A stretch of DNA of 57,963 bases from Candidatus Sulfotelmatobacter sp. (GTDB lineage: Bacteria > Eisenbacteria > RBG-16-71-46). The translations under genes and the position numbers were made by a program. Shown piece after piece: positions 3,466 to 7,144 of the stretch (its first letter is position 1; the number at the start of each line of letters is the position of its first letter). Location: assembly GCA_035498555.1 (NCBI GenBank), contig DATKAB010000009.1:1-57963 (forward strand), read 5' to 3'. The notes under the pieces were generated by a model. It saw only the letters and a program-made list of their open reading frames with translations, made no database searches and was not told the origin of the DNA.

Positions 3466-4503
3466 CTAGTCGTTCTCGGGGGACTCGCTGGGGACGATCT
3501 CGAGCTTCTCGAGATGCGAGTTGCGCAGGATCTCGAGCTGGAGCTTCACGCCGATCTGCGCCTCGGTGAGCATGCGGTGCAGATCGTCGACGCTGGTGAC
3601 GGCGCGCTCGCCGAAGCCCACCAGCACGTCGCCCTCGCGCACGCCGGCGCGTTCGGCGGGACTGTCCTTCTCGACGTGGAGCACCAGGATGCCGGCCTCG
3701 ATCTTGAGCGCGTGGTCGTTCACCAGCCGGCGCTTGAGCCTCGCCGGCTGGCCGCCGAGCCCGAGCCAGGCGCGCCGCACGCGGCCGTCGCGAATCAGCA
3801 GCGACGCAACGAACTCGGCGGTGCGTGACGGAATCGCGAAACAGATGCCCTGCGCCGGCAGGATGATCGCGGTGTTGACGCCGATCACCTGACCGCGCGA
3901 GTTCACCAGCGGACCACCGGAATTGCCGGGATTGAGGGCCGCGTCGGTCTGGATGATGTCGTGCATCAACCGCCCGGTGCGCGAGCGCAGCGAACGTCCG
4001 AGGGCGCTGACCACGCCGGCGGTCACGGTGGCTTCGAAGCCCAGCGGATTGCCGATTGCGACCACCAGCTGACCCGAGCGCAGCGCCGCCGAGTCGCCGA
4101 ACGAGATCGTCGGCAGATCGGTGGCCGACACGCGGATCACCGCGAGATCGGTGTCGGGATCGTCGCCGACGCGGGTGGCCTGCAGGCGCCGGCCGTTCGA
4201 GAGCGACACCTCGATCTCGCGCGCGCGGTGCACCACGTGGCTGTTGGTGAGGATCAGGCCGTCGGGGGTGAAGGCGAAGCCCGACCCGCCGCCGCTGCGG
4301 CGATTGCTCTGCGCCTCGGGCGAACGGCGGCCCGCGCGCACTTCAATGTTGACCACGGCGGGGGACGCAACGTCCACCGCCTGGATCACGGCTTTCGAGT
4401 AAGCATCGAGCAGCCCCGCGTCGTCGAGCGACGACTCGTCGCGCGCGGGTTCCTGGGTATCTTCGGGGGGTTTCGAAGAAATCAGACGGAGTCCGGGGTG
4501 CAT
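3466..4503 (-). CDS. HtrA/DegP-like trypsin-type serine protease with PDZ domain
   Basis: A 345-residue S1C-family protease. The catalytic triad is His89 (TNSHVV), Asp119 (DPDTDLAV) and Ser195 (NPGNSGGPL). A PDZ domain follows at about 245-335. The ATG at 4503 is preferred because a GGGAG lies five bases ahead of it; an open frame extends to a TTG at 4593 but lacks a ribosome-binding site and conserved sequence. No signal peptide or membrane anchor is visible at any candidate start, unlike classical DegP/DegS, so a cytoplasmic location is possible. The family degrades or refolds damaged proteins. It is transcribed alone, convergent with the upstream lipoprotein gene. Confidence 0.9.
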   Translation of the reverse strand: MHPGLRLISSKPPEDTQEPARDESSLDDAGLLDAYSKAVIQAVDVASPAVVNIEVRAGRRSPEAQSNRRSGGGSGFAFTPDGLILTNSHVVHRAREIEVSLSNGRRLQATRVGDDPDTDLAVIRVSATDLPTISFGDSAALRSGQLVVAIGNPLGFEATVTAGVVSALGRSLRSRTGRLMHDIIQTDAALNPGNSGGPLVNSRGQVIGVNTAIILPAQGICFAIPSRTAEFVASLLIRDGRVRRAWLGLGGQPARLKRRLVNDHALKIEAGILVLHVEKDSPAERAGVREGDVLVGFGERAVTSVDDLHRMLTEAQIGVKLQLEILRNSHLEKLEIVPSESPEND

Positions 4504-4662
4504 CACTACTCCCATGCCCGGGACCCGGGTCGCCGCGGGGGAGCGTTCCCGCTGCTGGATCTCGGGCTCCGTCAAGGCTCGCCCGGACCTCAAGGGTTCA
4601 GCGGAACTTCCGGGTCCGGTTTGCTTGACGGGCGTTAGATGCGGGGTGGCCCGGATCGATGG

Positions 4663-4709: not shown

Positions 4710-6071
4710 TCAAGCCGCTTGAGCCATTTCGTCGTCGCCGGACTGGGTTGCCGGAATGGGTCCGGAGGGGTTCACCGGCGACAGCGCCCCGCCGGTCATC
4801 TGCCAGACTTCGAAAGCGATCTGGGGCTCGCCCGCCCCGGTGGCGGTCGCCAGCGCCAGGAACGTCGGCCAGCCGGTGGTGTGGGCGGTCAGGGCCTCGC
4901 GGTCCCTGCCGGAGAAGCGCGTGCGCCACGACGCGCCGACCGAGGCGGCTCCGGCACCCGGCAGGCGGGCCACGATCCTCCGCACCTCGTCGAGCCCCGC
5001 CAGCTGCCCTTCGGCGATGGCGGCGCCCACGTCGAGCAGCAGCGTCTTCGGCTGCGCGGCGAGCAGGCCGGTCGATAGCTCGGCCGGGGAACACTCCGCC
5101 AGGATGCCGGCGCGCTCGGGGTGCCGGTAGACCGGCAGATCCCGCGCCAGCAGCAGGCACTCGTTGGCGCGCGCGTGGAGCTCGGCGAGCACCGCGTGCA
5201 GCACTTCACGGGCCGCCTCGCTGTCGCCGCCGCCGATCAGGAGCAGGGCGCGCGGGAGCGCGAGGATGCGAGTGAGGGCTTCGCGCCCGCCCTTGAGCCT
5301 GGCGGGATCGGGTGGCGCGACGTGCACCGGCCGAAGCCACAGCGCCTCGTCGGGCCCGGGTGCCACCAGCGTCACCGCGACCAGGCGCGGCCCGGGCAGC
5401 GTCGCGAACCGGGTCGGTCGATCGCCGCTCGAGGCCTCGCGGAGACCGGTCGGCCCGAGCAGGCGGAGCTTGAAGTCCTCGTACTCGCTCTGCGAGAGCG
5501 CCGCGTCGTGCACGTCGCGCCATACGCCCTTCACGCATAGCCGGGCCGCGCGATTGGGGCGCAGCACCATGCGATCGCCGGGGCGGCTCATGGCGTCGGC
5601 GAACGCGCCGTAGATCGAGGCCGGCTCGGCGTCGATCGCATGCGCCTCGTGGGCGAGATTCTTGAACACGTCGCGCAGCGCTTCCATCGCGCCCTGGCGC
5701 TCGCGAACGCGCGCCTGGGTGCCGGCTTCCCCGCCGGCTGCCGTGCTGGCCTCGTCGAGCCGCCGCGCCGCCTCCAGCATCAGCGCTTCGCTGCCGACCT
5801 CGATCGAGTCGCCGGGACCGACCGGCTCGTGGGTGAACGTGAAGCGCCCGCTCTTCCATTCGAACACGCGATAGGCGGCGCCCTCGCCCTCGCGGCGCTT
5901 TTCGTCCACCGCGTTGACGATGCGTCCGTCGCGGAAGATCAGCGCGCCGCGTTTGCCATCGGAATCCACCGCCAGTCGGCCGGTGGCGCGGTTGAGGGTC
6001 AGCAGCTGGCCGAGGTCGAACAGGTTGACGAGCCCCAACTCGCCGCTGAGATTGCCGTCGGACTGCGCCAT
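4710..6071 (-). CDS. DUF4388 domain fused to a degenerate PilT-like ATPase domain
   Basis: A 453-residue protein. Residues 1-110 form a DUF4388 domain (GNLSGELGLVNLFDLGQLL, GRLAV, ALIFRDGRIVNA, RVFEWKSGRFTF), a module common in gliding and pilus regulators. Residues 130-430 follow the layout of PilT but without its catalytic residues: at the Walker A position is IGGGDSEA (279-286) instead of GPPGTGKS; DLPVYRHPER (311-320) matches the Asp-box region DPIEYRHVNR; LLLDVG (344-349) stands at Walker B; and IAFEVWQMTGGAL aligns with the PilT C-terminal segment LALEILGSGGAV. The ATG overlaps the pilT stop (TGATG), so the two are translationally coupled. ATP hydrolysis is unlikely; a regulatory or scaffold role at the pilus base is inference. 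Confidence 0.8.
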   Translation of the reverse strand: MAQSDGNLSGELGLVNLFDLGQLLTLNRATGRLAVDSDGKRGALIFRDGRIVNAVDEKRREGEGAAYRVFEWKSGRFTFTHEPVGPGDSIEVGSEALMLEAARRLDEASTAAGGEAGTQARVRERQGAMEALRDVFKNLAHEAHAIDAEPASIYGAFADAMSRPGDRMVLRPNRAARLCVKGVWRDVHDAALSQSEYEDFKLRLLGPTGLREASSGDRPTRFATLPGPRLVAVTLVAPGPDEALWLRPVHVAPPDPARLKGGREALTRILALPRALLLIGGGDSEAAREVLHAVLAELHARANECLLLARDLPVYRHPERAGILAECSPAELSTGLLAAQPKTLLLDVGAAIAEGQLAGLDEVRRIVARLPGAGAASVGASWRTRFSGRDREALTAHTTGWPTFLALATATGAGEPQIAFEVWQMTGGALSPVNPSGPIPATQSGDDEMAQAA

Positions 6072-7144
6072 CAAGCGGCCTCGCGCGCCGCGCCCGACCC
6101 GGGCCCGAGCAGCTCGCGATTGCTGACGTGGATGGACGCTTCCTCGGTGCTGATTACGCCGCTTCGCAGCAATTGCATGACGGATTCGTCCATCGAAATC
6201 ATGCCTTCCTTCTTTCCGGTTTGAATCACTGAAGCCAGCTGGAAGGTCTTGCGCTCGCGAATCAGGGCGGCGACCGCGCCGCCGGAGCCGAGGATCTCGA
6301 GCGCCAGCACGCGGCCCGAGCCGTCCTTTCGCCGCATCAGCCGCTGGGCCAGCACGCCCTTCAGCGATTCGGCGAGCATCAGACGGATCTGCGCCTGCTT
6401 CTCGCCCTCGAACGAATCGAGGATGCGATCCACGGTCTGGGTGGCGCTCATGGTGTGGAGCGTGCCGAATACGAGCTGTCCGGTGGCGGCGGCGGTGACT
6501 GCGAGCCCCATGGTTTCGGGGTCGCGCATCTCGCCGACCAGGATCACGTCGGGATCCTCGCGCAGCGCGCCGCGCAGTGCCTGGGCGAAACTGGGCGTGT
6601 TGCGGCCGACTTCGCGCTGGGTCACCAGCGACTGGCGATTGACGTGCCGGTACTCGATCGGATCCTCGATGGTGAGGATGTGCTTGCGACGGTTGCGATT
6701 GATGTGGTCGATCATGGCCGCGAGCGTCGAGGACTTGCCGGTCCCGGGCGGCCCGGTGACGACGACCAGCCCGCGCGTCAGCTCGGTGAGCCGGGTCACC
6801 AGCGGCGGAAGTCCGAGCTCACCGAGCGACAGGATCTGGTTGGGCAGGATGCGAAAGGCCCCCGCCACGCCTCGCGACTGCTCGTACACGTTGCAGCGCG
6901 CGCGCACCACGCCCGGCACCTCGTACGAGAAGTCCACGTCTTTCACCTGCTCGTAGCGGGCCCGGGTGTCGGCGTCCATGATCTCGAACAGCAGCAGCTC
7001 GTTGATCTCGCGAGTCAGCTCCTCGTAGGGAATCGGAGTGATCTCGCCATTGAGCCGCACGATCGGCGGGGCGCCGGTGGTCATGTGCAGGTCGGAAGCG
7101 CCCTGCTCCTTGACGATCTTGAGGATCGCGTCGATTCTCGCCAT
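6071..7144 (-). CDS. pilT: Type IV pilus retraction ATPase PilT
   Basis: A 357-residue GspE/PilT-superfamily ATPase of normal length. It has the N-terminal PAS-like domain (ASDLHM at 16-21), Walker A GPPGTGKS at 131-138, the Asp box TIEDPIEYRH at 158-167, Walker B DVILVGEMRD around 199-208, the His box GTLHTMSA at 227-234, and the C-terminal AALIRE-type motif. The ATG at 7144 has a strong GGAGG seven bases upstream; the frame remains open further upstream but is not conserved. PilT powers pilus depolymerisation, which drives twitching motility and DNA uptake. The downstream gene, overlapping by one base, encodes a paralogous but catalytically decayed partner. Confidence 0.95.
   Translation of the reverse strand: MARIDAILKIVKEQGASDLHMTTGAPPIVRLNGEITPIPYEELTREINELLLFEIMDADTRARYEQVKDVDFSYEVPGVVRARCNVYEQSRGVAGAFRILPNQILSLGELGLPPLVTRLTELTRGLVVVTGPPGTGKSSTLAAMIDHINRNRRKHILTIEDPIEYRHVNRQSLVTQREVGRNTPSFAQALRGALREDPDVILVGEMRDPETMGLAVTAAATGQLVFGTLHTMSATQTVDRILDSFEGEKQAQIRLMLAESLKGVLAQRLMRRKDGSGRVLALEILGSGGAVAALIRERKTFQLASVIQTGKKEGMISMDESVMQLLRSGVISTEEASIHVSNRELLGPGSGAAREAA

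Follow-up and report, generated by a model that had tools for sequence, protein, structure and literature searches.

A DUF4388 protein with a catalytically dead PilT-like domain, encoded directly behind pilT: a candidate regulatory subunit of one PilT subtype

In the 57,963-nucleotide stretch of Candidatus Sulfotelmatobacter sp. DNA analysed here (hereafter the window), the gene of PilT, the enzyme that reels in type IV pili (bacterial surface fibres), is followed directly by a gene whose product joins an N-terminal DUF4388 domain to a C-terminal part homologous to PilT and stripped of its catalytic residues. The pair of pilT and this dead copy is kept across two phyla, which suggests that the working retraction motor is probably under the control of its dead copy. 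The reading favoured here, with reasonable confidence, is that a catalytically dead PilT paralogue has been turned into a dedicated regulatory subunit of one PilT subtype.

The pilT–partner locus and the DUF4388 domain

The coordinates of the locus and of the parts of the 453-residue protein are collected in Table 1. The upstream pilT product begins with MARIDAILK and has intact motifs (Walker A GPPGTGKS, IEDPIEYRH, DPDVILVGEMRD, and TLHT). Translational coupling of the two genes, claimed by a sequence-only reading of this DNA, is borne out by the one-base overlap in TGATG and by the junction type conserved in relatives, in which the frames of pilT and its partner overlap or nearly abut. Directly downstream of the pair, positions 3466-4593 of the minus strand encode an HtrA/DegS-type serine protease with a PDZ domain. 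A larger conserved operon was looked for, and no neighbour beyond pilT and its partner is common to all loci compared. Within the window, scans for Rfam families and for tRNAs returned no matches, and no match was found in the plasmid records searched. As a separate observation, both products of the pair end in -AA (last codons at 6074-6079 for pilT and 4713-4718 for the partner), an ending shared by 13 of 17 partner PilTs, 9 of 14 complete pseudo-PilTs, and most other PilT paralogues in the phylum (L023-L037, L085-L098), and absent from the 17 other long open reading frames sampled in the window; to judge from their letters, such tails may resemble ClpXP degrons.

Table 1. Positions of the paired genes, their junction, and the parts of the pseudo-PilT protein in the window
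Feature	Position	Strand	Details
pilT, active-type PilT/PilU-family ATPase, 357 aa	6071..7144	minus	TIGR01420 429.7 bits, cut-off 319.1
Overlap of pilT stop and partner start, TGATG	6069..6073	minus	TGA 6073-6071 and ATG 6071-6069, one base common to both
DUF4388-pseudo-PilT gene	4710..6071	minus	453 aa; ATG at 6071, stop 4712-4710; homologues from 15 further genomes aligned
DUF4388 (PATAN-type) domain, residues 9-108	5748..6047	minus	PF14332, E 3.4e-20
Pseudo-PilT N-terminal (N2D) part, residues ~165-250	5322..5579	minus	alignment begins at PilT residue 16; P 0.034 on its own
Pseudo-PilT RecA-like (CTD) part, residues ~263-432	4776..5285	minus	P 1e-5 on its own; AlphaFold2 and Foldseek
Walker A relic GGGDSEAAR, residues 280-288, no lysine	5208..5234	minus	alignment to PilT
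YRHPER, residues 315-320, opposite PilT YRHVNR	5112..5129	minus	alignment to PilT
Walker B-equivalent strand PKTLLLDVG, residues 341-349, without catalytic Glu	5025..5051	minus	joint alignment

By score, the window protein is a DUF4388 protein (72.7 bits against a PF14332 gathering cut-off of 25), and the domain was matched by Pfam in all 14 relatives. From the InterPro name (PatA-like N-terminal), we take DUF4388 to be, probably, the PATAN domain. In keeping with this, in the sampled genomes DUF4388 is found fused to response-regulator receiver domains, and among the controls it was matched in Synechococcus, Thermus, and Deinobacterium, with no match in E. coli. A solved structural relative of the domain was sought and none was found. 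In six proteins from outside the phylum (L069, L071, L072, L074, L076, L077), the C-terminal part behind DUF4388 looks, by eye, like a degenerate small-GTPase domain. In Synechocystis, the direction of movement is set by PATAN regulators, which bind PilB1, a pilus motor, and the platform protein PilC (PMC12288463, PMC10519157, PMC7690835). The window protein resembles the known regulators PatA, PixG, PixE, and LsiR in having a DUF4388-type domain that acts, by inference, on type IV pilus motors (PMC12288463, PMC7690835). However, these are fused to receiver domains, whereas the window protein is fused to a pseudo-PilT and has no receiver domain, the Pfam search of it matching DUF4388 alone.

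Homology to PilT and state of the active site

The sequence-only reading had described a fusion of DUF4388 to a dead PilT-like domain, and had named profile search and structure prediction as checks. Single-sequence searches (Pfam, NCBIfam, and phmmer against the PDB) detected DUF4388 only and no homology to PilT, a miss from which no conclusion is to be drawn; NCBIfam gave no match to the window protein up to an E-value of 10, and the best value among 14 relatives (0.0028) did not reach the TIGR01420 cut-off. For profile comparison, relatives were collected from whole genomes of the same phylum. The hhalign comparison of 14 C-terminal regions of the family with 15 partner PilTs gave a P-value of 9e-8 over 213 collinear columns, against 0.59 for the reversed alignment and 0.78-0.96 for five column shuffles. 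With only 8 family-level sequences, the P-value was 1e-5, and omitting the single aligned member that bears a Walker A motif left the result unchanged. The separate comparisons of the two halves (Table 1) place the signal mainly in the RecA-like one, and removal of the P-loop columns weakened the match (P 0.0017). When the profile was compared with all PDB sequences, Thermus PilT (5fl3) was found at 3.1e-16, followed only by PilT, PilU, GspE, and DotB to an E-value of 0.07; with members from a second phylum included, 5fl3 was found at 2.9e-17 and PilU at 1e-12. Profile searches of both kinds thus match the PilT/GspE superfamily.

Structure prediction likewise returned a PilT-type RecA-like fold in the region singled out by the sequence-only reading. 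The AlphaFold2 model of the window protein, built from 14 aligned sequences (mean pLDDT 81.0, pTM 0.62), consists of a beta-rich DUF4388 domain, helices at 94-143, and an alpha/beta region spanning residues ~165-432; its best Foldseek matches among solved structures were DotB (2.4e-13), PilT4 (4.5e-12), and PilT2 (1.4e-11). For the AlphaFold2 model of a second-phylum member (pLDDT 80.5), PilT2 was found at 1.9e-17, followed by PilT4, PilU (8.5e-17), and DotB, with approximately 340-370 alignment columns. The C-terminal part of the window protein therefore shares homology with PilT in both the N2D and the RecA-like domain. The earlier claim that it ends in a segment matching LALEILGSGGAV fared less well: L-INS-i puts AFEVWQM on the strand of this C-terminal segment, the window model has strands at 418-432, and the second-phylum alignments are of the length given above, whereas the hhalign profile alignment of the window protein ends at about residue 386. 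On the alignment and the model, the match is plausible and less secure than the rest.

The catalytic motifs can be placed within this alignment. IGGGDSEA lies opposite TGPPGTGK and YRHP opposite the YRHV of PilT, with no gap between them, which agrees with the replaced Walker A motif and with the equivalence of YRHPER to YRHVNR, both noticed from the sequence before. The Walker A lysine is absent in 15 of the 16 aligned members (the window protein has IGGGDSEAAR where PilT has TGPPGTGKSS), the catalytic glutamate (VGE) in 14 of them, again including the window protein, and both residues in 13. The His-box histidine (TLHT), for which no recognisable counterpart had been seen, is missing in every member covering the box, the window protein included. 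None of the members has the complete set of ATPase motifs. Judged by these motifs, ATP hydrolysis looks lost in all members, and two members of the second phylum may keep the catalytic glutamate as LPE. Two further members keep a canonical Walker A motif without the His box, namely L032 in genome G037 (GGRGTGKS) and the contig-truncated L022 in genome G026 (L022 / L111; GPPNSGKS). This combination suggests that nucleotide binding may persist in some members, and that some lineages may be ATP-binding but non-hydrolysing.

The likeness to PilT and PilU (TIGR01420; PDB 5fl3, 6ojx, 9n32) thus covers the order of the N2D and RecA-like domains, the collinear course through Walker A, Asp box, Walker B, and His box, and the predicted fold. 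The protein differs from them by its lost catalytic residues, a score below the family cut-off, the added N-terminal DUF4388 domain, and, in the window lineage, a reduced C-terminal part. Because it fails on the catalytic features and on the family cut-off, the window protein should not be filed as PilT or PilU.

Distribution, constraint, and alternative explanations

The pair of pilT and dead partner was found in 15 of 47 sampled genomes of the home phylum (Candidatus Eisenbacteria). In the second phylum, the dead partner occurs in 6 of 7 genomes and stands behind pilT in five of these six carriers. In the sixth carrier (G293, locus L110), pilT and the pseudo-PilT gene are both frameshifted, by sequencing error or joint decay. 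A survey of 290 genomes across bacteria gave near full-length matches outside the home phylum from one family only (f110), which belongs to the second phylum. Overall, the dead partner lies directly behind pilT at every locus that is complete at this point. The scores of the partner-PilT profile are bimodal (at least 596 bits in 16 genomes and at most 498 in the rest), and the dead partner is kept in 15 of the 16 home-phylum genomes with a partner-type PilT. In the exception, G015, the gene directly downstream of the partner-type pilT encodes an HtrA-family protease, like the gene behind the window pair, so only the partner appears to have been lost there; since G015 keeps its partner-type PilT, the partner is not essential to this PilT type. 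All partner PilTs, those of G015 and of the second phylum included, form a single clade (support 100/99).

Constraint is graded along the pair. Median identity between species is 59% for PilT, 45% for DUF4388, and 20% for the pseudo-domain (76, 56, and 31% within the family), which indicates that PilT is strongly constrained, DUF4388 next, and that the dead domain drifts yet retains its fold. W382, P341, and R247 are near-invariant in the pseudo-domain. In a tree among PilT paralogues, its end branches reach up to 10 changes per column, too long for a secure placement. Tandem pilT pairs are common in the home phylum, and it tends to be their downstream member that receives the highest score from the pseudo-domain profile, which is taken as a hint only. 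One genome (G000; C126, C81, C161, C9) has six PilT-family matches, two of them in tandem on C126. Outside the home phylum, two single open reading frames carry two tandem PilT domains each (L094, 2675-5875, in G174; L095, 2110-4335, in G081), with Walker A intact in both domains and the two domains falling in different PilT groups.

The much better conservation of DUF4388 than of the pseudo-domain can also be read in another way. The protein could work mainly through DUF4388, as an adaptor or localisation factor at the base of the pilus, with the PilT-like part as a structural leftover or a docking handle and the catalysis and ring of PilT left untouched. Such an adaptor is favoured by the lack of PilT's extreme C-terminus in several family members, and by PATAN proteins that bind pilus motors with no PilT domain of their own (PMC12288463). 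However, fold, reading frame, and pairing have all been preserved in both phyla, only one PilT clade takes part in the pairing, and the near-invariant residues persist in the pseudo-domain; an adaptor of this kind is therefore rather unlikely, while remaining the strongest of the alternatives.

It is more doubtful still that the protein is a PilU-like accessory retraction motor, forming its own ring and binding nucleotide in some lineages, with the window protein as the nucleotide-free extreme. PilU is likewise a PilT paralogue encoded directly downstream of PilT (PMC6762196, PMC6821130), and the canonical Walker A motifs of L032 and L022, the match of the second-phylum model to PilU, and the high profile scores of downstream genes in tandem pairs point the same way. 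On the other hand, PilU has a conserved Walker A lysine, acts as an ATPase, and has no DUF4388 domain, both members with a Walker A motif lack the His box, and the lysine and the catalytic glutamate are jointly missing in most of the family; phylogenetic placement was blocked by the very long branches. It is possible that the protein works like PilU, as a PilT-dependent partner; that it is PilU is not supported. The last alternative, a decaying pilT duplicate kept by chance, would account for fast divergence, motif loss, and the partner missing beside the G015 PilT, but such a pseudogene is refuted in practice by the distribution, with intact frames and the same junction type in 15 genomes of the home phylum and at least 5 of the second, with identities of 20-40%, and by the conservation of the fused DUF4388 domain.

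Proposed role in pilus retraction

Of the roles suggested by the sequence-only reading (stator, inhibitor, or hetero-oligomer partner), a stator has no specific support, and co-inheritance with one PilT clade is the basis on which a role of this general kind may be proposed. For the dedicated regulatory subunit preferred here, one mechanism is quite possible, namely that a pseudo-ATPase subunit with PATAN-type input is co-translated with its partner PilT, assembles with it, and gates retraction. Co-production of both proteins from one coupled mRNA is strongly suggested by the junctions. The pseudo-PilT would then bind the partner PilT via the retained PilT fold, as exclusive co-inheritance and fold retention suggest, either as a subunit inserted in the PilT ring or attached to it, or as a companion resembling PilU, in a mixed ring, a stacked ring, or a cap. 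The DUF4388/PATAN domain would serve as the input, linking the complex to the pilus platform or to a signalling protein, and retraction by the partner PilT would be switched, positioned, or throttled by a pseudo-subunit that itself would hydrolyse no ATP.

In V. cholerae, PilU can still drive retraction when PilT carries a Walker mutation, and the two proteins interact (PMC6821130, PMC6762196), which means that an inactive member of the family can matter mechanically. However, in vitro the two V. cholerae proteins assemble into homohexamers of their own (PMC6821130), and this argues against a mixed ring. The drift of the pseudo-domain also seems unusual for a tight ring subunit, which counts against the regulatory-subunit reading, as does the lineage of G015, whose PilT does without the partner. 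In the open-access literature searched, no published dead or pseudo-PilT, and no DUF4388 with PilT, was found; as subscription journals were mostly outside the scope of this search, it is only weak evidence of novelty. If gating is the correct reading, the protein would be, to our knowledge, the first regulatory pseudoenzyme of the PilT family.

As far as we know, the control of pilus retraction timing is poorly understood, and the regulators described so far mainly target the extension motor PilB. That a dead PilT is kept beside an active one in both phyla points to control of retraction by a built-in subunit. DUF4388 is tied directly to a pilus motor by its fusion to the pseudo-PilT and by the conserved coupling, independently of the cyanobacterial PATAN work, and the pair offers a simple two-gene system for testing retraction-side control.
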